Shown piece by piece: positions 4,398 to 21,064 of a DNA stretch of 21,064 bases. Numbering within the stretch: the first letter of the stretch is position 1; every line of letters begins with the position of its first letter. The stretch spans positions 1-21,064 of the forward strand of contig JAATGE010000137.1 of assembly GCA_015654825.1 (NCBI GenBank), given 5' to 3'. The notes beneath the pieces are model-generated. The model had not been told where the DNA came from. It did not search any database and was given only the letters and a program-made list of their open reading frames with translations. The position numbers were made by a program, and so were the translations under genes. The DNA comes from Rhodospirillales bacterium. GTDB taxonomy: Bacteria; Pseudomonadota; Alphaproteobacteria; Acetobacterales; Acetobacteraceae.

Positions 4398-4425
4398 CCG
4401 CGGCCCGAACGGCCAGGGTCGTTGG

Positions 4426-4450
4426 ACCACCGGCGGCCATGGCCGGTGGT
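4426..4450 (+). terminator. Possible terminator hairpin after ssuB
   Basis: ACCACCGGC (4426-4434) and GCCGGTGGT (4442-4450) form a perfect 9-base inverted repeat around a 7-base loop, starting 28 bases after the ssuB stop. No T-run follows, so it may act as a 3' stabiliser or a Rho-associated structure instead of a classical intrinsic terminator. The remaining bases up to 4590 hold no gene that I can support and presumably include the promoter of the following signalling gene. Confidence 0.5.
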
Positions 4451-4590
4451 CGCGCGACCGTTGGCGATCAACTTTAGGTTGCAAGTCGCGATATAAGGTG
4501 TTAACCAAAATTCTCCGGGCTCCCTAACCCGCATCCTGGGTGCGGGCCCGAGTATTGCGGCTCCAGTTCATTGGACTGCTAGGAGACGGC

Positions 4591-6741
4591 GTGCTCCGAA
4601 GCCTTGCCGAATGGCTTTTTTCCCCGCCGGACCTGACGCCACACGGTTTCTGCCTGCTTTGGGAGCCGTGGCTGATTTGGTCGCAAGCCATCGGCAATTG
4701 CGCGATCGGCCTCGCCTACATTGCGATCCCGCTGGCGTTGACCCGGTTCGCGAGCCTGCGCCGAGACCTCGCGTTCAAACCGGTATTCTGGCTTTTTGCG
4801 TCCTTCATCCTCTTGTGCGGCGCCACCCACTGGGCCGATCTGGTCACGCTATGGGTGCCAGCTTATCGCGTGTCCGCCATTCTCATGGTAGCGACTGCAA
4901 TCGTTTCGGTCGCCACCGCGATTACCGTGTGGCATATGCTTCCACTGGCGCTGACGATCCCCGCGCCGGCTCAGCTACGGGCCGCCGACCGCGCGTTGCG
5001 CCAAAGCGAAGACATGCTTCGTATGTCGGCGGATATAGCCCGCATTGGCGGATATCGTCTCGATATTGTTGAAGGCCGCATGCACTGTCCGCCGGAAGTG
5101 CACCTCATGCATGGCTATGCCAGCAATGGTGAACCCGTGACGGACGCCGCCTGGCTTGCGATGCTGCTGCCGGAGGACCGCCAGCGCGTGGGCGAAGAAC
5201 TCGCGGCCGCTTATGCGGCGCGGCAGCAGGTCACCGATATCTGCTATCGAATCGAACACCCGACGGACGGCATGCGGCATTTCGAAAGGCGTTGCCACAT
5301 AGAGTACGACAGCGCCGGGCGACCGGTGCACGCGATCTGCGTCGTTGTCGATACGACGGAACGCAGGCGATCGGAGGCGCGTCTTGCGCATCTGGCCCAT
5401 CACGACCCGCTGACGGGATTGGCAAATCGTAACCTTTTAGGTATCCGCCTCGGCGAGGCGATGACACGCGCGGCAGCCGGCGAGGCGTTCGCCATTTTGT
5501 GCATCGATCTGGATCGCTTCAAGGACGTAAACGACATGTTCGGCCACGCCGTCGGCGACGCGTTGCTGATCGCAGTCGCGGCCCGAATGGCGGCAGCGCT
5601 GCGGCCCACCGACACGGTCGCCCGCCTGGGCGGCGACGAATTTGCCGTCATACAAACCCAGATCGACGAGCCCGCCAACGCGAGCGTACTCGCTGCCCGG
5701 CTTATTGCCGTCCTGGGGGAGCCGTTCGATATCGCCGGCAATCACATTGTTATCAGCGTCAGCATCGGCATCGCGATCGCGGGCGAAAAGACGCCGGATT
5801 CGGAACGCCTGCTGCGCAACGCGGATATTGCGATGTACGCCGCCAAAACAACGGGAGCCCGGCGCTACCGGATCTTCGCGACTGAAATGGATGAAAAAAT
5901 CCAGGCACGATGCCGGCTGGAAACCGAGTTGCGGCAGGCGTTCGACAACAACGAATTCGAATTGTTCTACCAACCCCTTGTCAACGTCGATACACACCTT
6001 CCGTGCGCCTTCGAGGCTTTGCTTCGCTGGCGGCATCCGCGCGAGGGGCTCGTGATGCCCAGCCGGTTCATCCAGGTTGCAGAGACGACAGGTCTTATCG
6101 TGCCGATCGGCGCCTGGATTCTCCAGACGGCCTGCACCGAGGCCGCTCGTTGGCCGAACGATTTGCGCGTCAGCGTGAACCTCTCCGCGGTACAGTTCTC
6201 CGACGGTGACCTCCTCCAGGCGATCAAGGTGGCCTTGTGCAAGTCCGGCTTGAACCCGAGACGGCTTGAACTCGAAATCACCGAATCGGTCATGCTGCGG
6301 GATACGATGGCGACACTGGAGGCGCTGCACGAAATGAAGACACTGGGCGTGAGCGTCGCCATGGATGATTTTGGCACGGGCTACTCGTCGCTCAGCTATC
6401 TTCAGAGATTTCCTTTTGACAGGCTGAAGATCGACCGTTCGTTCGTGGCGTCGCTCGGCACAACACAGGAGAGTCGCGCGATCGTGGAAGCGGTTGTCTG
6501 CCTTTGCTCAGGTCTGGGCATCGGTACAATAGCAGAAGGCGTCGAAACCAAGACGCAGCTGGCTGTGTTGACGGAAATTGGGTGCACCGAGGCGCAGGGG
6601 TATCTGTTCAGCCCGCCGTGCTCGACCAAACAAATATCTTCGGTAATAGGACACCTCGAGAATTCCACCCGTGCGGCAGCCCCCTCGGAAATCGCGAGCG
6701 CTGTCGCCCTCGGCGACGCGTTGCTCAGCGCGGCAGGATGA
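4591..6741 (+). CDS. Ethylene-receptor-like membrane domain fused to PAS, GGDEF and EAL (c-di-GMP turnover)
   Basis: The protein has 716 residues. I place the start at GTG 4591 because AGGAG sits five bases upstream; GTG 4540 would add 17 residues without a ribosome site. Residues about 25-120 form three membrane helices that align with plant ETR1: AYIAIPLALTRF matches helix 1, and FILLCGATH matches the copper-binding helix 2, with Cys76 and His80 in the positions of ETR1 Cys65 and His69. Tyr43, Ile46, Pro47 and Ile73 are also kept, but the Asp25 position is Asn36. A PAS domain follows (about 138-258). The GGDEF is intact (347-351) with an inhibitory RxxD (Arg338, Asp341). The EAL domain has Glu475, Asn531, Glu562, DDFGTGYSS (Asp592, Asp593), Lys613 and Glu649. 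Both c-di-GMP synthesis and breakdown are therefore plausible. Ethylene sensing is an inference from the helices. Confidence 0.88.
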   Translation: MLRSLAEWLFSPPDLTPHGFCLLWEPWLIWSQAIGNCAIGLAYIAIPLALTRFASLRRDLAFKPVFWLFASFILLCGATHWADLVTLWVPAYRVSAILMVATAIVSVATAITVWHMLPLALTIPAPAQLRAADRALRQSEDMLRMSADIARIGGYRLDIVEGRMHCPPEVHLMHGYASNGEPVTDAAWLAMLLPEDRQRVGEELAAAYAARQQVTDICYRIEHPTDGMRHFERRCHIEYDSAGRPVHAICVVVDTTERRRSEARLAHLAHHDPLTGLANRNLLGIRLGEAMTRAAAGEAFAILCIDLDRFKDVNDMFGHAVGDALLIAVAARMAAALRPTDTVARLGGDEFAVIQTQIDEPANASVLAARLIAVLGEPFDIAGNHIVISVSIGIAIAGEKTPDSERLLRNADIAMYAAKTTGARRYRIFATEMDEKIQARCRLETELRQAFDNNEFELFYQPLVNVDTHLPCAFEALLRWRHPREGLVMPSRFIQVAETTGLIVPIGAWILQTACTEAARWPNDLRVSVNLSAVQFSDGDLLQAIKVALCKSGLNPRRLELEITESVMLRDTMATLEALHEMKTLGVSVAMDDFGTGYSSLSYLQRFPFDRLKIDRSFVASLGTTQESRAIVEAVVCLCSGLGIGTIAEGVETKTQLAVLTEIGCTEAQGYLFSPPCSTKQISSVIGHLENSTRAAAPSEIASAVALGDALLSAAG

Positions 6742-6830: not shown

Positions 6831-9800
6831 CTACTTGCCTTTCTTCTCAACTTCCACGCGCACCGCCGCCAACGCCTTGTTCGCGCCAGCCATATCCGCC
6901 ACCGCCTTGTGATAGCCGGCCCGCGCATCCGCCGTCGGCGCACCGTCGGCGCCGTCCACCGCCTGCGCCAGCGTATCGAGCCGCTCGGAAATCGAGTTCA
7001 AGGTATCCGGCGCCGGCCGTGCTGCCGCCGCGACACCAAACGGGTCGAACTTCGCCCCGGTGGCCGCGCCCAGACGCGCGATCAGCGCCGACTTGCGTGG
7101 CGATCCGGCGCTCGCGTCCAACGCCTTGCGAAGGCCCGCGGCACTCTTCAGAGCAGTGCGGCACGCAACCCGCGCCGCCTCGATCTCCGTCGCGAGTGCG
7201 AATTGCGCCTGCAAATCGCCGGGCGCCAGTTTCAACCGCGGGTCGGGTAGAACAGACAGAGTCTGGCGATAACTATGCCCAGCCACTGTCAGCGTGACGC
7301 TGTAGGTTCCCGGCGGCGCCCAAACGCCCTGCGGCTCGCGCTCGCCGCCTGTCAATCCCGGCGGTTTTGCATAATGCAGGTCCCAAACGAACCGCTGTGC
7401 ACCCGGGGTCGCGGCCGGTGGGTGTCGCGTGACGATCCATTCCGGTGCCGCCGCGATCTTGGCGAGGTCCGGTACCGGTACCGGGTCCGTGCTACGAAAC
7501 TGCCGCACCACGGCACCCTTCGCGTCGGAAATCGCGATCTCCACGGGAACCGATGCGCCCGTGGGCAGCGCATAGTCGATGATCGCGCCGCTCGGCGGAT
7601 TTGGTGCCATGGGCTCGTCTTTCGGCATCGGCGTGCCGGTGAACGAGGGCGGGTGCAGGCGGATTGCCGGCGTCAGGGTGAACAATCGCGGCCCGCCAGC
7701 CGCATCGGCGGCAAGATCGCGCAACTGCACGATATCGTCCATGATGTAGAACCCGCGCCCATGCGTCGCGATCACCAGGTCGTCGCCATGCAGCACGATA
7801 TCGCGCACGCTGGTGCGCGGCAGATCACGCTGCAGCGACTGCCAATGCTCCCCATCATCAAACGATACGAATACGCCGCGTTCGGTGCCGGCATAGAGTA
7901 GGCCGCGCCGCGCCGGATCCTCGCGCACAACATTCACGCTGTTCAGTACGCCGCCGTCGACCAGGCCAGCAACGACCGGCCGCCAGTTCTTTCCGCCATC
8001 CGTTGTGCGCAATATATAGGGCGCGAAATCATCCAGACGGTGGCGATCGATCGCCAGGTAGGCCGTTCCGGCCTCGAAGTGGGACGGCTCCACGACACCG
8101 ATCTTCGACCATGCAAGCAGCCCGGCCGGCGTCACATCATCCCAATGCGCGCCGGCATCGCGCGTGCGCCAGACCAGCCCATCATCCGTCCCTGCCCAAA
8201 TCAAGTCTTTTGCCAGCGGCGACGGGGCAATCGCATAGACCACGCCGCGCCGCTTACCTGGATCCGGGGTGTCGGCGATCGTCGGCGCATCGAGGGTCGC
8301 TGGTACGCCGGGATCGGCGCGCGTCAGGTCCGGACTGATCGGCGTCCAATGTGCGCCGCCGTCCGCGGTGCGGAAAATACGCTGATTGCCGAAATAAAGT
8401 GCGTGGTCCAGCGGCCCGAACACCAGCGGCAAAGTCCAGGTGCCGCGATAATTGTCCGGAAATGCGAGCGTCGGATCGACGCTGTGCAACTGCCCCGAGC
8501 GCAGATCCAGTTTATCCACGCGGCCGCCATAGACCGTGTCGGGGTCGTCGGGATCGGGCGCGATATTGTCGCTCTCGCCGCCGGCGGCGACTTCGTGAAA
8601 ATCCTCCATCGTAATGCCGTCGGTCGGGCTGTCGCTGCGGCTCGGCACGCCGGCGGCCCCGGTATCCTGCTGCGCTCCGTAGACGCGGTACGGAAAACGA
8701 TTGTCGGTGCTGACGTGGTAGAACTGGCCGGTGGGCTGGTTGTACCAGCTGCTCCAGGTCTGTCCGCCATTGACCGTCACCAGCGCGCCCTGATCGACGC
8801 CGAGGATGCGCCGCGCCGGATCGTTCGGATCGATCCATAGACTATGGAAATCGTCGCCGGTCGGGTCGCCCTTCAGCGGAATGAAATGCCGACCGCCATC
8901 GGTGGAGCGCAGCAGGATGGTGTCGCAGACGTAGATGATGTCGGCATTCTTCGGGTCCGCCGTGATGCCCGAAAAATACCAGGCGCGTTCCAGGATGCGT
9001 TCGTCTCTGCTGACCTGCTCCCAGTTCGCGCCCGCATCCTCCGAGCGGAACAGCCCGCCCCCTTGCTTCGCATCGATCAGCGCATAAACCCGGTTCGGCC
9101 GCGCCGCGGAGAGCGCGATACCGATGCGGCCGACGCCCGTCGGTAGGCCGTGACCTTCGAGATGGGTCCAGCTGCGGCCGCCATCGAGAGATTTATACAG
9201 CCCGCTGCCCGGCCCGCTCGATGGCGGATATACGTTCCACGGCGGCCGCCGTGTTTGCCACAGCGCGCCATAGACGACATCCGGATTGCCGGGTTGAAAC
9301 GCGAGGTCGATCGCCCCCGTGTCCGCATCGCGAAACAGCGTCTTGCTCCAGGTGCGGCCGCCGTCGGTAGAGCGGAACACACCGCGCATCGAGTTTGGCC
9401 CGTACGGGTGCCCAAGTGCCGCCACCAGCAACACGTTCGCGTCGCGCGGATCGACCAGGATGCGCCCGATCTGTTGTGTATCGTCGAGGCCGATCGGCAC
9501 CCAGTTCTGGCCCGCGTCGGTGGAACGGAACATGCCCACGCCCTGCGCGATATCGGAGCGCATGTCGGCTTCCCCGGTGCCGATATAGATCGTACTCGGT
9601 GCGGACGGCGCCACGGAAAGGGCGCCGATCGATCCGACCGGGCCGGCATCGAAGATCGGCGCCCAGGTGCGGCCCGCATCGTCCGTGCGCCAGACACCGC
9701 CATTGACGGCACCGAAATAAAAGCGCCTTCGGTCGTCCGGCGATGCGTCCACCGCCAGCACCCTGCCGCCCCGGTACGGGCCGATCGAGCGCCAGTGCAG

Positions 9801-9908
9801 GTTCTGCAGCAGCGGGGCCGGTATCTCGGCGGCGCCGACGGACGAGCAGACAACCAGCATGCCGAACAAGGCGGCCGTGTTGCGCATAGGGGGTGATTTT
9901 ATCTTCAT
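6831..9908 (-). CDS. Secreted multi-Asp-box (BNR/VPS10-like) beta-propeller protein
   Basis: This 1,025-residue protein has a signal peptide (about 1-27, ending VGAAE). At least eleven Asp-box motifs of the S/T-x-D-x-G-x-x-W type follow, among them RTDDAGRTW, STDAGQNW, STDGGRTW, SLDGGRSW, SEDAGANW, TVNGGQTW, TADGGAHW, TRDAGAHW, TTDGGKNW and SFDDGEHW. Asp-boxes mark bladed beta-propellers of the sialidase and sortilin/VPS10 folds. WRSIGPYRGGRV near residue 39 is typical of the bacterial family usually labelled glycosyl hydrolase or BNR-repeat protein. After about residue 720 comes a beta-sandwich-like region (GTYSVTLTVAGHSYRQTL) and then a helical tail. No catalytic residues can be assigned, so the substrate is unknown. 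An in-frame ATG at 9887 is an alternative start; neither has a clear ribosome site. It is separated from the efflux operon by a large inverted repeat. Confidence 0.85.
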   Translation of the reverse strand: MKIKSPPMRNTAALFGMLVVCSSVGAAEIPAPLLQNLHWRSIGPYRGGRVLAVDASPDDRRRFYFGAVNGGVWRTDDAGRTWAPIFDAGPVGSIGALSVAPSAPSTIYIGTGEADMRSDIAQGVGMFRSTDAGQNWVPIGLDDTQQIGRILVDPRDANVLLVAALGHPYGPNSMRGVFRSTDGGRTWSKTLFRDADTGAIDLAFQPGNPDVVYGALWQTRRPPWNVYPPSSGPGSGLYKSLDGGRSWTHLEGHGLPTGVGRIGIALSAARPNRVYALIDAKQGGGLFRSEDAGANWEQVSRDERILERAWYFSGITADPKNADIIYVCDTILLRSTDGGRHFIPLKGDPTGDDFHSLWIDPNDPARRILGVDQGALVTVNGGQTWSSWYNQPTGQFYHVSTDNRFPYRVYGAQQDTGAAGVPSRSDSPTDGITMEDFHEVAAGGESDNIAPDPDDPDTVYGGRVDKLDLRSGQLHSVDPTLAFPDNYRGTWTLPLVFGPLDHALYFGNQRIFRTADGGAHWTPISPDLTRADPGVPATLDAPTIADTPDPGKRRGVVYAIAPSPLAKDLIWAGTDDGLVWRTRDAGAHWDDVTPAGLLAWSKIGVVEPSHFEAGTAYLAIDRHRLDDFAPYILRTTDGGKNWRPVVAGLVDGGVLNSVNVVREDPARRGLLYAGTERGVFVSFDDGEHWQSLQRDLPRTSVRDIVLHGDDLVIATHGRGFYIMDDIVQLRDLAADAAGGPRLFTLTPAIRLHPPSFTGTPMPKDEPMAPNPPSGAIIDYALPTGASVPVEIAISDAKGAVVRQFRSTDPVPVPDLAKIAAAPEWIVTRHPPAATPGAQRFVWDLHYAKPPGLTGGEREPQGVWAPPGTYSVTLTVAGHSYRQTLSVLPDPRLKLAPGDLQAQFALATEIEAARVACRTALKSAAGLRKALDASAGSPRKSALIARLGAATGAKFDPFGVAAAARPAPDTLNSISERLDTLAQAVDGADGAPTADARAGYHKAVADMAGANKALAAVRVEVEKKGK

Positions 9909-14261: not shown

Positions 14262-14750
14262 TTAGGGCGGCACTGCGCCCTGCCCGCCTTGCGATAGCGC
14301 TTTTACGTAGGCTGAGATTTCCCACAATTGCTGGTCCGGGATCTTGCCGCCCCAGGACGGCATTCCGTTCGGCCTTCCCTGCACCAGGGTTTCGTGGATC
14401 TGGTCGATCTGTCCGCCATAGCGCCATTGCGGATCAATCAGCGCGGGCCCCATGCCGCCGGCGCCATGAAAGTGACATCCGGAACAATTGTACCAGTCGA
14501 AAAGCCGCGCGCCTTCCGCAATGGCTTGGGAATTGCCTTCATATTCGCGGCCGCGAGGATCGGGCGGCGGTGGGCGCCCACCTCCCGGAAACAGCGTGGT
14601 GGTGGGCACGAATTGGCGGCCGCTATCGGTTGGTGCCGCGATAGCCTGCGAGGAACCGGCGACAGCCTGTGCGTGAGCTATTGCGGGCGTGCCCAGCAGC
14701 AGCGCGGCGGCAGCGGCCGCGCTATGAATGTTGTGGTATCGCGAAGACAT
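14262..14750 (-). CDS. Periplasmic c-type cytochrome, likely electron partner of the PQQ dehydrogenase
   Basis: The protein has 162 residues with a signal peptide (ending near TPAIAHAQA, residue 29) and a proline- and glycine-rich linker (about 54-68). A single cytochrome c domain follows: CSGCH at residues 89-93 binds haem covalently, and Met130 in RPNGMPSWGG is the probable axial ligand. The gene overlaps the 3' end of the PQQ dehydrogenase gene by 29 bases, so the two are translated together. It probably accepts electrons from PQQ and passes them toward the oxidase encoded upstream. It is the last gene of the operon, facing AT-rich hairpins. Confidence 0.88.
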   Translation of the reverse strand: MSSRYHNIHSAAAAAALLLGTPAIAHAQAVAGSSQAIAAPTDSGRQFVPTTTLFPGGGRPPPPDPRGREYEGNSQAIAEGARLFDWYNCSGCHFHGAGGMGPALIDPQWRYGGQIDQIHETLVQGRPNGMPSWGGKIPDQQLWEISAYVKALSQGGQGAVPP

Positions 14751-16560
14751 AGAGCGTGCCCCCTGCGGTTGTCTTGCTTTTCAGGTCGGCGGTGGCGCCG
14801 ACGAACCCAAGCGCCCCGGTGGGATCGCGCGGATTGAGGTTGCCTGAAACGATGGCGCCGGCCCAGCCGCCGACACCCGAAAGCACGGCAACATATTCGT
14901 TGCCGTCTGGTCCACGATAGGCAATCGGTTGGCCGACGATGCCGGAGCCGGTGTGAAACTGCCATTTCAGGGCGCCGGTCGCAGCATCCACGGCCTTGAA
15001 CCAGCCATCCATGGTGCCGTAAAAAACCAGATCCCCGGCGGTCACCAAGGCGCCACTCCAAAGCGGCAGATCCTCCTTGATATTCCAGGCGGCTGTTTGC
15101 CGGACCGGATCCCACGCCGTGAATTCGCCGCGATTCCCGCCGGGCCCTGGTTTCATGACGACGTTCGCGCCGACGAACCGCGTGCCTGAAGGGTAGTTGC
15201 CCTGCACGTTCTCCCGATACATGCACAGCTTTTCGTGCGGAATATACAGCAGGCCGGTGCGCGGCGAATAGGCGGAGGGATTCCAGTCCTTGGTGCCCGA
15301 TGCCGTTGGGCAGATATCGTGCACAACCGCGCCGAGCTTGGTTTCCTTCGCAGGATTGATGATGGGGCGACCGGTCTTCAGATCTATGCCGGTTGTGGAA
15401 TTGACGTATCCGTACGGGTTCGCGGAGATGATTTCTCCGTTCGTGCGGTCGATTTCGTAAAGATGACCGTTGCGGTCGGGGTGCAACAGCACCTTGCGCA
15501 TCTTGCCGTCCACCGGCACGTCGAGCAGTATCTGTTCGTTAATGCCGTCATAATCATGCTCGTCGTGCGGATTGAGCTGATCGCCCCACTTTGCGGCGCC
15601 GGTGTCCGGATCACGCGCGAAGATTGTCGTCGTCCATTTGTTATCCCCAGGGCGCTGTTCGTGGTTCCAGGGACCGGGATTTGCGGTGCCGTAATAGATC
15701 AGATTGAGATCGGGGTCATAGGCGATCCAGCCCCACATCGTTCCGCCGCCTGTGCGCCAGGCCTCCGGAGGCCAGGTCGACACGCCGAGGTCGTGGCCCT
15801 GCTCACCCGCATAGAAAGGATGAAAATCAGGTCCGATCAGCACATCCTTGTCGGGCCCTGTCGCATAGGCCCGCCAGAGCTGGCGGCCGCTCGCCGCATC
15901 CAGCGCCGTGAGCCAGCCCTGCACGCCCATTTCTCCGCCGGAATCGCCGACCAGCACCTTGCCCTTCACGACCAGTGGCGCCATGGTGATCGTTTCGCCC
16001 TTGTTGATATCGGTCAACTGCGTGCGCCATAGCTGTTTGCCCGTCGCGGCGTCGAGTGCAACCGCGCTCCCGTCCAGCGTATTGAAATAGAAGCGGCCCC
16101 CGTCATAGGCGCCCCCGCGGTTTACCACATCGCAACAGGCAACGCCCTGGGCCGCGGCCTGCTGCCTGGTCACATACGACCATTTCAGTGGGGCACCCGG
16201 CTTTGTCAGATCGAGCGCAAACACGTTGTTCGGGTATGAGGTTACCAATATGAGCGTGTTGGTGACCACGGTCGGCGCGCCCTCCTCGCCATGAACCGTG
16301 CCTGTGGCAAAGGTGAACGCCACGGCGAGATCCTTGACATTCCCGCCATTGATCCGGTCGAGCGAAGAAAAACGCGTGGCCGCATAATTCTTTGCCGGCA
16401 TCACCCACTGGCCGTCATCGTTCGGGGCCGCTGATGCAGGGGGTTGCGGTGGCGCGGCGGCGGCCTGAACCGCGCCGAGCGACAGCGCGGCAGCGCACAG
16501 GACCGGTCGCCGCCAACGACCCCTGCGTTTAGCGCAGCGTGTAGAGATAAGCGGCAACAT
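14722..16560 (-). CDS. PQQ-dependent alcohol dehydrogenase, methanol/ethanol family, lanthanide-type active site
   Basis: The protein has 612 residues from ATG 16560, chosen because GAAGGA lies eight bases upstream and a signal peptide follows (RRPVLCAAALSLGAVQAAAA). The frame is open to 16677, but that stretch belongs to the preceding cytochrome gene. The eight-bladed quinoprotein features are present: the vicinal Cys142-Cys143 (GVACCDVVNRG), metal ligand Glu210 (SGGEMGVQG), Asn294 (GTANPGPWN), and catalytic Asp336 in HDEHDYDGINE. Asp338, two residues later, is the extra acidic ligand seen in lanthanide enzymes (XoxF, PedH); calcium MxaF has Ala there. No cytochrome domain is fused, so electrons must leave through separate cytochromes. 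It oxidises an alcohol in the periplasm; the substrate is not clear. No XoxJ-like gene is seen. Confidence 0.9.
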   Translation of the reverse strand: MLPLISTRCAKRRGRWRRPVLCAAALSLGAVQAAAAPPQPPASAAPNDDGQWVMPAKNYAATRFSSLDRINGGNVKDLAVAFTFATGTVHGEEGAPTVVTNTLILVTSYPNNVFALDLTKPGAPLKWSYVTRQQAAAQGVACCDVVNRGGAYDGGRFYFNTLDGSAVALDAATGKQLWRTQLTDINKGETITMAPLVVKGKVLVGDSGGEMGVQGWLTALDAASGRQLWRAYATGPDKDVLIGPDFHPFYAGEQGHDLGVSTWPPEAWRTGGGTMWGWIAYDPDLNLIYYGTANPGPWNHEQRPGDNKWTTTIFARDPDTGAAKWGDQLNPHDEHDYDGINEQILLDVPVDGKMRKVLLHPDRNGHLYEIDRTNGEIISANPYGYVNSTTGIDLKTGRPIINPAKETKLGAVVHDICPTASGTKDWNPSAYSPRTGLLYIPHEKLCMYRENVQGNYPSGTRFVGANVVMKPGPGGNRGEFTAWDPVRQTAAWNIKEDLPLWSGALVTAGDLVFYGTMDGWFKAVDAATGALKWQFHTGSGIVGQPIAYRGPDGNEYVAVLSGVGGWAGAIVSGNLNPRDPTGALGFVGATADLKSKTTAGGTLYVFAIPQHS

Positions 16561-16909
16561 CGCGCGCATCCTTCCCATCCAATCCCATATTCGGCATGGC
16601 GTTGCCGGCAACGACGCTTTGCGGCGCCCGCAGCCAGGCAACCATGTTGTCCGCGGTATTTGCCAGCACACCAGCAATGATCATGCGGTCCGCGATGTTA
16701 TCGAGCGGTGGGCCCACCAGGCCGCGCGCACCGCGAATGCCTGGTATCGTGTGGCAGCCGCCACAGCCCAGTTGCTCGACCAACGCCGCGCCGTGCGAGG
16801 GATTCCCGCCGGAGACGGAACGCTCGCTCTGGCTGGACGCATGGTGGGACGGCGCCAAGGACCCGATCAACGACGCAGCAATGATCGCCGAAACATTTAG
16901 CCGGCGCAT
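16529..16909 (-). CDS. Small periplasmic c-type cytochrome
   Basis: The protein has 126 residues. The N-terminal signal region is MRRLNVSAIIAASLIGSLAP, and CGGCH at 49-53 is the haem site, followed by TIPGIRGARGLVGPPLD. Met105 (AGNAMPNMGL) is the likely axial ligand. The C-terminus (DVAAYLYTLR) is like that of the cytochrome domain fused to CtaC in the same operon, which ends AYLQTLQ, so the two may have arisen by duplication. The gene overlaps the membrane-protein gene before it by 13 bases and the PQQ dehydrogenase gene after it by 32 bases. It should shuttle electrons between the dehydrogenase and the oxidase. Confidence 0.87.
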   Translation of the reverse strand: MRRLNVSAIIAASLIGSLAPSHHASSQSERSVSGGNPSHGAALVEQLGCGGCHTIPGIRGARGLVGPPLDNIADRMIIAGVLANTADNMVAWLRAPQSVVAGNAMPNMGLDGKDARDVAAYLYTLR

Positions 16910-17349
16910 GTCGGCACCATCAATAGCGCGACGACGTTGAATGCGATCGCGCCGAAGAAGCCCAATCCGGCCATCAAGCCTACCACCGCCAGAAAGCGTG
17001 TGCGGCCTTCGCCGACCTCGAGCAAATGGCTGGTCGGTCCGGGCTGTTCGCCATGCGTGACCGACCATAAGCGCCACGCAACGAAAGCCGCCAGCAAAGC
17101 GATCGCCATGCCGGCAATATTGATGGCCAGCATTGCGGTCGGCACGCTTGGCCAGAGCGGGCCGGTCCCGACGCGTGGCGTGTCGTGCGGAAAACACGCA
17201 AAACTCGCCAGCGCGTAGTTGGCGACGAACTGGCCGAACCAGGCGGCCGGCCCCCCCACCAGACCGAAGAGCAGCGCGGCCAGGGAGACCTTGGCGCGAT
17301 GCGGCGAGGGATGCGCGGTTGTCGCCGTGGCGCTCGATGTTGCAGACAT
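16897..17349 (-). CDS. Three-helix membrane protein in the oxidase operon (unknown function)
   Basis: The protein has 150 residues. Three long hydrophobic helices are visible at about 21-52, 69-95 and 116-148, with Cys52 at the end of the first and Cys148 at the end of the third; a glycine- and proline-rich GLVGGPAAWFGQF sits in helix 1. I do not recognise a named family. The gene starts five bases after the ctaE stop and overlaps the next cytochrome gene by 13 bases, so it is probably made together with the oxidase. It may be an extra subunit or assembly factor, perhaps like the CoxP-type partner of alternative aa3 oxidases; that is an inference from position only. Confidence 0.7.
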   Translation of the reverse strand: MSATSSATATTAHPSPHRAKVSLAALLFGLVGGPAAWFGQFVANYALASFACFPHDTPRVGTGPLWPSVPTAMLAINIAGMAIALLAAFVAWRLWSVTHGEQPGPTSHLLEVGEGRTRFLAVVGLMAGLGFFGAIAFNVVALLMVPTCAG

Positions 17350-17354
17350 GGAGA

Positions 17355-17957
17355 TCACCAGAGATGCGGTGTGACATAGAGCACGATGAATACCGCGGCA
17401 CCCGCGCCGACGACGAAGTGCCAGTAGGCGGCGACAATGATGACGGGATCGTGCCGCCTGCTGTCGAAATATCCCAGCATGGACCAGACCAGCACGAGCG
17501 CCAAGGCCAGGAGGCCGGCCAGCAGGTGTGCGAGATGGATGGCGGTAATGATATAGAACATCGAGCCGTATGCATCGGAGCGTATTGAAAACGCCTTGCC
17601 ATGCCATTCGAGCAGTTGCAGTGCGACGAACGCGGCACCGCATAGCAGCGCCGCCAGGAAGCCGGCACGCAACCGCTCTGGCGCACCGGCGCGAGATCCC
17701 CAGAGTATGGCCAGGCTGCTGGCGAGCAACAGCAGAACGCCGGGCAGCGCAAACCTCACTGACGGCATCGCCGTCAGCCACTCGCCATCGACCTTGACCG
17801 CATCGTAGAGGTAGGCAAACAGCAGATAGCCGAACAGCGACGCTTCAGTAACGATGACGGTGATCATGCCCCACCAGCCGACACCGGCGTAGCCGAGACC
17901 GCCGACCGCCAACGGCCGGGGGGCGGAAGGTGTGGCCTCGATCGCGGTGTCAGACAT
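17355..17957 (-). CDS. ctaE: Cytochrome c oxidase subunit III
   Basis: The protein has 200 residues and about five membrane helices. Family marks include WWGMITVIVTEASLFGYLLF with Glu38, the segment LLEWHGKAFSI, IITAIHLAHLLAGLLAL, and a final YWHFVVGAGAAVF that corresponds to the classical YWHFVD motif with changes. Subunit III supports the proton-uptake path of subunit I in the inner membrane. The ATG at 17957 overlaps the end of ctaD by eight bases (ATGTCTGA). The frame is open upstream to 18077, but this would lie inside ctaD. It is shorter than the 7-helix mitochondrial form and resembles the five-helix bacterial type. Confidence 0.9.
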   Translation of the reverse strand: MSDTAIEATPSAPRPLAVGGLGYAGVGWWGMITVIVTEASLFGYLLFAYLYDAVKVDGEWLTAMPSVRFALPGVLLLLASSLAILWGSRAGAPERLRAGFLAALLCGAAFVALQLLEWHGKAFSIRSDAYGSMFYIITAIHLAHLLAGLLALALVLVWSMLGYFDSRRHDPVIIVAAYWHFVVGAGAAVFIVLYVTPHLW

Positions 17958-19896
17958 GGCGTGGTTGCGCGATCTGGGCCAATGCGCGCTCCGGCCACAG
18001 CCATCCGACGATCGAGGCGGTCGCGACCGCACCGCCGAACGCCGCCAGCCACCATTGGTGCAGCAGCAGGCCCACAAAAAAACCGCTCAGGCCCACGGTC
18101 AGCAACAGCGGTGCGTAGGATTCGCCGGGCATCTTCAGAATTGCGTCGGCGTCACCATCGAGCAGCGTCGTGGCCAGCGTTTCGCGACCGTGATCGAGCA
18201 GCATGCCCTCGATCGCCGTGGAACGGTCGGCACTTTCCTGCAATCGGTCCTCCCACAACGGATGCCGGCTGACGACCGTGGGGATGACCGCGAAGTTGTA
18301 GGATGGCGGAGGCGACGGCACGGACCATTCCAGCGTGGCCCCATCCCACGGGTTGGCACCGGCCAAACGGCCGCTGCGCAGACTCTGTATTACGTTGACT
18401 AATAGCAACAGAACGCCAGCGGCAAGCACGAAGGCGCCGACAGTGCTGACCAGGTTTAGGATGTTCCATCCCATGTGGTCCGGAAAAGTGTAGATACGGC
18501 GGGGCATGCCGCGCAATCCGGTCAGGTGCATCGGAAGGAATGCCAGCTTGAAACCGATGAACATCGTCCAGAAATTCCACTGGCCCAGCCGTTCGTCGAG
18601 CAGGCGGCTGGTCATTTTCGGAAACCACACGTAGATCGCGCCGACAACCGGAAAAAGATTGATGCCGATTAGCACGTAATGCAGGTGGGCCACTACGAAA
18701 TAGGTTTGTGTCAGCTGCCAGTCAACCGGCACCGAGGCGGTCATGAACCCGGAGACGCCACCTATGACGAACAGCACGATCATGCTCGAGAAAAACAGGA
18801 ACGCTGTCGTGATGACCGGACGGCCGAGCCAGATCGTCGCGGTCCACGCGAACACCGCGACGGCGCTCGGCACCGTGATGATGATGGAGGCGCCGCTGAA
18901 AAACGACAATGCGAGGTTCGGCAGGCCGGTGGCGAACATGTGATGCACCCAGACGCCGAAACCGAGGATCATGGTAGCGACCGTGGAAAGTGCGACCGGC
19001 GTGTAGCCAACCAGCGGGCGCCGGCAGAAGATCGGCAAGGCGTCCGACACCATGCCCATGGCGGGCAGTACGACGGCATAGACCCAGGGGTGGCCGAACA
19101 TCCAGAACAGATGTTGCCACAACAACGGCTGCCCGCCGGCAGAGACATCGAAGAAGTGTGTGCCGAACTGGCGATCCATCCAAAGCAGGAAAAACGCCAG
19201 GCTCACCGCGGGCACCACCAGGATATTGGCGGCCGAGGCCGTCAATGTGCCCCAGACCATGATCGGCATGCGGTTGACCGACATGCCCGGGGCGCGCGTA
19301 CGCATGACGGTTACCAGGAAGTTGGCCGCGCCGACGGTCGTGGAAATGCCCAGGTAAATCATGCCCAGGGCATAGAAATCGATGTTCATGCCGGGATTGT
19401 ACGGGCGCGACGCATAAGGTACGTAGTTGAACCAGCCGTCATTCGGGCCGACGCCGATGGCAAAGCCGGCATACATGAACAGGCCGGCGGCCACGTATAT
19501 CCAGTACGACAGCGCATTGAGGCGCGGGAACGCCATGTCGCGCGAGCCGAGCATCAATGGCCAAAGATAGTTGCTGAAGCCGGAGAGCACCGGCATGGCG
19601 TACAGGAAGATCATGGTCATGCCATGCGTCGAAAACAGCTGATCGTATTGCTCGGGCGTCAGCAAATGGCGGTCCGGGCCGATCAGTTGCAGGCGCATGA
19701 CCAGCGCTTCGATACCGCCCAAAATCAGGAACGCAAATGCGGTAACGATGTAGCAGATGCCGATCTTCTTGTGATCGACGGAAGAAAGCCAGCCCCCGAT
19801 GCCCGGGGGCGTTTCCCAAATTACGCCCAGCCCGCGCCGGTACGCCGCAGTGGCACTGACGTATCGGGGGATGCGCTCGAATTCAATGTCTTCCAC
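17950..19896 (-). CDS. ctaD: Cytochrome c oxidase subunit I, alternative type
   Basis: The protein has 648 residues with twelve core helices plus a C-terminal extension containing one or two more (about 598-640). Haem and copper ligands are complete: His91 and His406 (haem a), His404 (haem a3), His269, His318 and His319 (CuB), and Tyr273 for the His-Tyr link. D-channel entry residues are kept (Asn109, Asp120, Asn127). However, GHPWVY has Trp271 where most A1 enzymes have the channel-end Glu, PSAVAVFAW has Ala347 where the K-channel Lys usually sits, and TQTYF replaces the HDTYY of the Mg site. Similar GHPWVY and PSAVAVFAW forms exist in an alternative (CoxN-like) branch as far as I recall. 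The gene starts at GTG 19896 with AGGA nine bases upstream. Confidence 0.93.
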   Translation of the reverse strand: MEDIEFERIPRYVSATAAYRRGLGVIWETPPGIGGWLSSVDHKKIGICYIVTAFAFLILGGIEALVMRLQLIGPDRHLLTPEQYDQLFSTHGMTMIFLYAMPVLSGFSNYLWPLMLGSRDMAFPRLNALSYWIYVAAGLFMYAGFAIGVGPNDGWFNYVPYASRPYNPGMNIDFYALGMIYLGISTTVGAANFLVTVMRTRAPGMSVNRMPIMVWGTLTASAANILVVPAVSLAFFLLWMDRQFGTHFFDVSAGGQPLLWQHLFWMFGHPWVYAVVLPAMGMVSDALPIFCRRPLVGYTPVALSTVATMILGFGVWVHHMFATGLPNLALSFFSGASIIITVPSAVAVFAWTATIWLGRPVITTAFLFFSSMIVLFVIGGVSGFMTASVPVDWQLTQTYFVVAHLHYVLIGINLFPVVGAIYVWFPKMTSRLLDERLGQWNFWTMFIGFKLAFLPMHLTGLRGMPRRIYTFPDHMGWNILNLVSTVGAFVLAAGVLLLLVNVIQSLRSGRLAGANPWDGATLEWSVPSPPPSYNFAVIPTVVSRHPLWEDRLQESADRSTAIEGMLLDHGRETLATTLLDGDADAILKMPGESYAPLLLTVGLSGFFVGLLLHQWWLAAFGGAVATASIVGWLWPERALAQIAQPRHV

Positions 19897-19907
19897 GCGG
19901 GCTTGTC

Positions 19908-20927
19908 CTATTGCAGCGTTTGCAGGTAGGCCGTTACGCTGGCGATTTCCTGGCCGGATAGATAGAGGTTCGGCATGTTAGTGCCCGGCTTCAGCGATTG
20001 CGGATTAGCGAGCCACCCGGCGAGATTGCCGATATTGTTGGCCAGCATGCCGCCGGCGAGCGTTCCGCGGCTCATCAGGTGCGTGAGATCGGGCGCCACA
20101 GTGCCACCGGCCGCGGTGCCCCGCGCGCTGTGGCAGGCACCGCAATGAAATTCGAAATCTCTTTCTCCTGCCACGGTCTGTGCGGATTGGGGCGAGTTCG
20201 CGGGGCGCAATTGTCCGTCCCACCATTGCTGGAATTGCGCGGCAGGATCGGCCACCACGACCAGCCCCATATGCGCGTGCTGCACGCCGCAATATTCGCT
20301 GCACTCGCCGCCGTAGCGGCCTGTGTGGTCCGCCTCGATCCAGGTTTCGTTAATCTGCCCTGGGATTGCGTCCATCTTGCCGCTTAGAGCCGGGACCCAG
20401 AACGAGTGGATGACGTCCGCGCCGATCAGGCGGATGCGCACGGGTTCACCCACCGGGATATGGATTTCGTCGGCTGTGGTGAAAACGCGAGATGGGTCGG
20501 GGCTCAGGTAGCGCGCTTTGAACCACCATTGCTGCGCGGTTATCTCGATGGTCACCCGGGCAGGCCGCGGCGGCGCGTTCACGGCCGCCAGCACAACCAT
20601 GGTCCACACCAGTGACAGCAGCAGTGCCACGCACGATATGCCCAGGCCGACCGAGATCCACCGCAGACCGGAACCGCCGCGTTCCACCGGTGCGCGCGCG
20701 ATCCCTCCCCCACCCCGGGCGCGACGGAGCAGAGTGCCGATAACGACCAATGCCGTTACGACGACGACGACCAGGGTGGAAAGCGCCAGCAGCCCCCAGG
20801 TCAGTTGCACGACGGGGTCGGATTTCGGCCCGAAACCACGCAGGTAGCCGAGCGGCGGCGCCGCCGTAGCGGGCAGCGTTAGGGCGAGGATGGCGGCGCA
20901 GGCGAGTGACAGGCTGCTGCTGTTCAC
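19908..20927 (-). CDS. ctaC: Cytochrome c oxidase subunit II fused to cytochrome c (caa3 type)
   Basis: The protein has 339 residues from GTG 20927, which overlaps the upstream ctaG stop as GTGA. A signal peptide (LACAAILALTLPATAA), two membrane helices (about 45-67 and 91-116), and a periplasmic CuA domain follow. The CuA ligands are complete: His174, Cys209, Glu211, Cys213, His217 and Met220 in ECSEYCGVQHAHMG. The tail carries a cytochrome c domain with CGACH (262-266) and Met318 in GTNMPNLY. Such fusions let the oxidase receive electrons from another cytochrome or directly from a dehydrogenase. A longer open frame to 21059 lacks a plausible N-terminus and is shared with ctaG. Confidence 0.93.
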   Translation of the reverse strand: MNSSSLSLACAAILALTLPATAAPPLGYLRGFGPKSDPVVQLTWGLLALSTLVVVVVTALVVIGTLLRRARGGGGIARAPVERGGSGLRWISVGLGISCVALLLSLVWTMVVLAAVNAPPRPARVTIEITAQQWWFKARYLSPDPSRVFTTADEIHIPVGEPVRIRLIGADVIHSFWVPALSGKMDAIPGQINETWIEADHTGRYGGECSEYCGVQHAHMGLVVVADPAAQFQQWWDGQLRPANSPQSAQTVAGERDFEFHCGACHSARGTAAGGTVAPDLTHLMSRGTLAGGMLANNIGNLAGWLANPQSLKPGTNMPNLYLSGQEIASVTAYLQTLQ

Positions 20928-21064
20928 GACAGAACGGTGCCTGCCGTGAGACCGGCCGCGTGGGCGCCGCCGCCGTGCTGCGCGGCCGGTGCCGCCGCCA
21001 CGAACCGCCGCAGCATCAGCATGGCGACCCCCAGGAAAACCACGCAACCGGGCACCCACATGAT
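20924..21064 (-). CDS. ctaG: CtaG (caa3-type oxidase assembly protein), 3' end only
   Basis: Only the last 46 codons are inside the window. The peptide starts IMWVPGCVVFLGVAMLMLRR, which is the C-terminal membrane helix typical of the caa3-type CtaG family (GLIMWVPGG form), then continues into an Ala/Gly-rich tail ending in TVLS. CtaG members help assemble copper centres or the oxidase in the membrane. The stop TGA (20926-20924) overlaps the ctaC GTG start, so the oxidase operon extends beyond the right edge. Confidence 0.65.
   Translation of the reverse strand: MMWVPGCVVFLGVAMLMLRRFVAAAPAAQHGGGAHAAGLTAGTVLS

Follow-up and report, generated by a model that had tools for sequence, protein, structure and literature searches.

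An open reading frame in the window (the whole stretch of DNA that was analysed, 21,064 nucleotides) codes for a protein in which a transmembrane domain of the ethylene-receptor type, ETR1_N, is joined to PAS, GGDEF and EAL domains, and we propose, with a probability of roughly 0.5, that it is a Cu(I)-site sensor, having low affinity for ethylene or using another ligand, that would shift c-di-GMP turnover. The sequence shows membership of the receptor family, conserved copper ligands, intact cyclase and phosphodiesterase motifs, and the replacement of both partners of a bridge proposed for the plant receptor ETR1. The gene and its domains are placed as follows.

4407..4469, strand not applicable: imperfect inverted repeat, without a T tract, in the gap that separates the sensor gene from the ABC operon upstream of it
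4581..4585, plus strand: Shine-Dalgarno AGGAG, 5 nt ahead of GTG 4591 (sequence)
4591..6741, plus strand: open reading frame coding for 716 amino acids, ETR1_N-PAS-GGDEF-EAL (frame translation and Pfam)
4672..4956, plus strand: ETR1_N, ethylene-receptor-type transmembrane domain (Pfam)
5080..5346, plus strand: PAS_3 (Pfam, 36.3 bits, cut-off 25.6)
5395..5862, plus strand: GGDEF domain, with RxxD I-site at 5602-5613 and GGDEF motif at 5629-5643 (Pfam and motifs)
5926..6618, plus strand: EAL domain with known catalytic motifs (Pfam and motifs; aligned to the MucR and MorA crystal sequences)

GTG 4591 is probably the start codon and is preferred over an upstream GTG at 4540, because AGGAG precedes it and homologues begin at about the same place. 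The inverted repeat suggests that the sensor gene is a transcription unit separate from the ABC operon. The preliminary description had noticed three N-terminal helices carrying AYIAIPLALTRF and FILLCGATH, with Cys76 and His80 at the sites of the copper ligands of ETR1, joined to PAS, GGDEF and EAL domains with intact catalytic residues, and all of this was borne out by sequence, alignment, Pfam, motif check and structure prediction. The membrane domain scored 99.8 bits against ETR1_N (E 1.1e-28, curated cut-off 27; 104.5 bits in the genome search), which places it in this family and not in an unrelated one, and GGDEF (152.7 bits) and EAL (248.8 bits) were also over their Pfam cut-offs. An AlphaFold2 model of residues 1-143, built from a 68-row alignment with a mean pLDDT of 91.7, showed helices at 26-56, 63-86 and 92-120, which hydropathy also supports as three transmembrane segments, followed by a linker helix at 126-142. 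Ahead of helix 1 there is a bacterial-type PHGxCxxWxP motif (domain residues 17-26, window 4639-4668), differing from the plant-type N-terminus of ETR1; its His18 and Cys21 are nearly invariant in bacterial domains (254 and 261 of 272, respectively) and could form a second metal or disulfide site.

The enzyme half carries, by residue, RPTD 338 (the RxxD I-site) and GGDEF 347 in the first domain, and EALLRW 475, NLSA 530, LEITESVM 561, DDFGTGYSS 592, LKIDRSF 612, AEGVET 648 and QGYLFS 669 in the second, motifs whose residues we take to be catalytic, so that the protein has the sequence expected of a putative bifunctional cyclase/phosphodiesterase. The NCBIfam family TIGR00254 matched with 129.2 bits (cut-off 37.4), and among the 25 families listed, every equivalog scored under its cut-off. 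The closest solved sequences were 5m3c (364.3 bits) and 4rnh (355.2 bits), presumably MucR and MorA of P. aeruginosa; both have GGDEF and EAL in tandem, as here, and both are membrane sensors of families other than that of the query. Two PilZ matches were found in its own genome.

The residues that matter for ligand binding and signalling were compared with ETR1 and with AzoEtr1 of Azospirillum brasilense.

4696..4698, plus strand: Asn36, codon AAT, site of ETR1 Asp25 (alignment)
4816..4818, plus strand: Cys76, site of copper ligand ETR1 Cys65 (alignment)
4828..4830, plus strand: His80, site of copper ligand ETR1 His69 (alignment)
4885..4887, plus strand: Met99, site of ETR1 Lys91 and AzoEtr1 Lys98 (alignment)

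We take the required residues of ETR1 to be Asp25, Tyr32, Ile35, Pro36, Ile62, Cys65 and His69. Six of them are present in the query as Tyr43, Ile46, Pro47, Ile73, Cys76 and His80, both copper ligands included, and the seventh, Asp25, is replaced by Asn36. According to the available text of PMC11819568, the residues required in ETR1 number seven, mutation of Cys65 or of Asp25 abolished binding (with reference to alanine scanning), and Asp25 and Lys91 are predicted to form a polar bond tied to output, proposed as a signal bridge. The part consulted of a review (PMC13012798) describes Asp25Asn ETR1 as a functional receptor with ethylene affinity around 100-fold lower, and mentions natural variants. 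ETR1 numbering was transferred through the AzoEtr1 alignment and the residue pairs given in the available text of PMC11819568. For AzoEtr1, which is there described as binding ethylene, we used a locus on an A. brasilense Sp7 plasmid (L199), since its frame starts MFGGVEAF like the cloning primer and its Asp35, Cys75, His79 and Lys98 agree with the residues named in that portion of the paper.

Arabidopsis ETR1 (PF25487, ETR1_N) and the query share the three helices, the Cys and His ligands and the equivalents of Tyr32, Ile35, Pro36 and Ile62; ETR1 differs in having Asp25 and Lys91 instead of Asn and Met, and a GAF-kinase-receiver output instead of PAS-GGDEF-EAL. AzoEtr1 is closer, being a proteobacterial ETR1_N followed by PAS, with 44.4% identity across query residues 7-123 and the same six required residues, but it retains Asp35 and Lys98, and its output at the C-terminal end is a histidine kinase. 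Because Asn36 and Met99 stand at the Asp25 and Lys91 sites, it would be unsafe to assume that the protein responds to ethylene with the high affinity of ETR1, and these two residues, together with the ETR1 Asp25 data cited above, therefore make an ethylene site weaker than, and not like, that of ETR1 the safest functional reading. The preliminary description, which overlooked both residues, had proposed that the protein may turn an ethylene (or copper) signal into c-di-GMP; the sensor family, the copper ligands and the enzyme motifs agree with this, whereas Asn36 and Met99 speak against an ETR1-like response.

The two replaced positions co-vary among bacterial domains. In the best 120 of 1079 homologues of the domain, Asp occupies position 36 in 91, Asn in 28 and Gly in one, and 114 have Lys at position 99. 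A larger set of 270 distinct domains was assembled from these 120, four further protein matches, 80 named loci, two plasmid loci, relatives, and the order and phylum surveys, the class survey being left out and cores under 95 residues or matches under 30 bits being excluded. Asp and Lys occur together in 218 of these, Asp without Lys in 7, Lys without Asp in 30 and neither in 15, in such a manner that Lys is absent from 15 of the 45 domains without Asp and from only 7 of the 225 with it (Fisher p 1.7e-8, a value that ignores kinship). A Pagel-type test of correlated evolution on the domain tree gave a likelihood ratio of 40.4 for this pair, against a maximum of 24.0 for 110 randomly drawn control pairs of columns of similar conservation; the associated p of 3.5e-8 comes from one tree and is not to be taken at face value, and more weight is due to the control pairs. 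The tree, built from 109 columns, resolves few of its forks, with 34 of 267 starred; an independent-pairs test on starred branches found one pair only. Ranked by APC-corrected mutual information, the Asp/Lys pair comes 6th among 5671 pairs more than four positions apart. The genome survey alone, class included, showed the same trend in 126 distinct domains (107 with both, 3 with Asp only, 5 with Lys only, 11 with neither). The Asn/Met state of the query was found in 3 of the 270 domains (the query, P0006 and L065/L123). Because both positions are lost together and the tree test exceeds all 110 control pairs, the joint loss of Asp and Lys appears to be a recurrent evolved state. Paired change of both residues is what the Asp25-Lys91 bridge model predicts, and a natural double variant offers a direct test of it.

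For the weak Cu(I)-site sensor that we favour, a working scheme may be drawn. The membrane domain would dimerise, with Cu(I) held by Cys76 and His80; an olefin (ethylene at concentrations far above that needed by ETR1) or another small Cu(I) ligand would alter the copper coordination; lacking an Asp-Lys bridge, the protein would relay the change by helix packing, by way of helix 126-142 and then PAS; and the balance between synthesis by GGDEF and breakdown by EAL would shift, in a direction not readable from sequence. We counted for this reading the ETR1_N score, the six of seven residues, the co-variation, the intact motifs and the confident helix model. Against it we counted the abolished binding in Asp25-mutated ETR1, as given in the available text of PMC11819568, the SsuABC-like neighbourhood, a genus mate that has no such fusion, and the few resolved forks of the co-variation tree; position 36 by itself says little, because 30 of the 270 domains have no Asp and keep Lys.

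The architecture is rare, not unique. With the query's own genome counted, the surveys of order, class and phylum found ETR1_N in 65 of 395 genomes (64 above cut-off), 28 of 385 and 29 of 398 (28 above cut-off), respectively. Among the 126 surveyed domains, a survey that left out 6 order, 2 phylum and 5 class places, the output was a histidine kinase in 97, GGDEF/EAL in 5 and neither in 24, the kinases being called by a profile built in this analysis and some loci perhaps stopping short of the output domain. The 270-domain set holds 11 GGDEF-EAL fusions, seven Asp/Lys, three Asn/Asp (Methylotuvimicrobium type) and one Asn/Met, and Pfam confirmed the architecture in 11 other scanned ETR1_N proteins, some of them one gene seen twice. 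The domain order of the query recurs in Roseomonas sp. 18066 (P0124/L124), Pseudoroseomonas deserti (P0125/L140), Humitalea rosea (L116), Belnapia mucosa (L100) and the Methylotuvimicrobium type (L159/L160), although all of these have two PAS-type matches versus one in the query. Six other loci (L081, L084, L137, L225, L228 and L231) have ETR1_N in short frames of 142-195 amino acids with no output domain, possibly split receptors; in L084 the frame that follows, on the same strand, resembles by eye a membrane PAS kinase.

The two halves of the query have different nearest relatives: its membrane domain is closest to P0002, a histidine-kinase protein (72% over 109 columns), and its GGDEF-EAL half to proteins without ETR1_N. 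A first tree of this half used 83 of 127 rows that could be cut. A more careful one took 39 hand-picked rows, five with ETR1_N, and left out the long-branched L066, L116, P0194 and Methylotuvimicrobium-type rows; in it the query sits among 12 rows without ETR1_N (support 99/99). The halves of P0124 and P0125 are not sisters of it, and grouping the three was rejected with a p-AU of 0.0013, a value tempered by the group having been picked after the first tree. Starred branches in both trees force at least three changes, a count that cannot separate gain from loss; because ETR1_N is missing from most rows, the simplest reading is that fusion to GGDEF-EAL arose more than once.

These relatives bear on the next-ranked reading, that the membrane domain is a signal-dead anchor and dimeriser which lost its ligand function, the PAS domain or the expression level being the real input. 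The loss of both bridge residues would fit it, as would the four scanned near relatives of the GGDEF-EAL half (P0123, P0126, P0129 and P0133), which have PAS domains and no ETR1_N. We consider it unlikely, however, since drift would not be expected to spare Cys76, His80, Tyr43, Ile46, Pro47 and Ile73 alike, and 95 of the 126 surveyed domains also retain all six.

Next in order, and also improbable, is a copper (or redox) sensor, in which the Cys/His site would report copper supply, not an olefin, and set c-di-GMP. The protein retains the copper ligands but not the residue on which ethylene affinity depends in ETR1, and in a gammaproteobacterial lineage of Methylotuvimicrobium type a related fusion with Asn/Asp adjoins metal-efflux genes.

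About 130-7571 of L159 and L160, one strand: RND adaptor, CusA/CzcA permease, DUF3240 gene and ETR1_N-PAS-PAS-GGDEF-EAL gene

The genes for the RND-type adaptor and the CusA/CzcA heavy-metal permease (TIGR00914, 1037.8 and 1032.8 bits, cut-off 701.45) precede the fusion on the same strand by around 0.5 kb, with the DUF3240 gene in between in L159; by its open frames, L152 has the same gene order. This neighbourhood, however, is that of one lineage, the TIGR00914 match does not make the subfamily copper-specific, and the adaptor passes the general RND cut-off (TIGR01730) only and fails the metal-specific one. Beside the query gene, a Pfam scan of 18 frames of the window recognised no copper-transport or copper-resistance gene, and its genome context holds no link to ethylene or copper: the upstream operon is SsuABC-like, for an aliphatic sulfonate transporter. 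At a distance of 11 kb there is a cytochrome c oxidase, which is a copper enzyme too.

A high-affinity ETR1-like ethylene receptor controlling c-di-GMP has family membership and copper ligands on its side but is the least likely of the four readings and highly improbable, given Asn at the Asp25 site, a change that lowers ETR1 affinity around 100-fold in the available text of PMC13012798, and Met at the Lys91 site.

More tentatively, and less probably than not, the query may belong to a separately evolved, recurrent bacterial class in which both bridge partners are replaced and the copper site is kept, and whose members answer to something else, be it copper, a redox state or a high concentration of an olefin. 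In this protein and in Methylotuvimicrobium, such a site would act on c-di-GMP without an intermediate. If so, the ethylene sensor fold would be a general Cu(I)-site sensor, with ethylene reception as one specialisation.

Bacterial proteins that join ETR1-type domains to various outputs were already described, as the part consulted of PMC7700396 relates, and in the open-licence PMC literature searched no title or abstract was found on such a domain fused to GGDEF/EAL; within that literature, the GGDEF-EAL fusion combined with the loss of both bridge residues would be new. If the fusion works, a gas-sensor fold known best from the perception of a plant hormone acts on a bacterial second messenger within one polypeptide, and because no phosphorelay stands in between, a single purified protein would suffice to measure both input and output.

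The link to cellulose that the preliminary description drew from Komagataeibacter is unsupported: no match to the Cellulose_synt profile was found in the query's own genome, which is 66% complete, and the available text of the paper behind the cellulose effect (PMC4686702) has no ethylene receptor reported for K. xylinus. The genus mate has one such match (29.4 bits, cut-off 24.7). That genome, the single one returned by the search, has three ETR1_N proteins, all kinases, and no GGDEF-EAL fusion; the source genome has one ETR1_N domain and, besides the query, 17 matches for the GGDEF-EAL part. A locus from a genome of the same genus (L203) encodes an ETR1_N hybrid kinase with Asn/Asp at the bridge and Arg for the copper-ligand His.

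P0122, a database protein of 491 residues from an 84.5-kb contig, is identical to the query at residues 247-661 save one stretch, which replaces the GGDEF motif and resembles a local frame shift, perhaps from sequencing errors. On the minus strand of the window, 6831-9908 encodes a sortilin/BNR-repeat protein of 1025 residues with no match in the genus mate, and 14262-21059 holds a cluster with cytochrome c oxidase subunit I, subunit II fused to cytochrome c, a PQQ-type beta-propeller protein and further cytochromes c.
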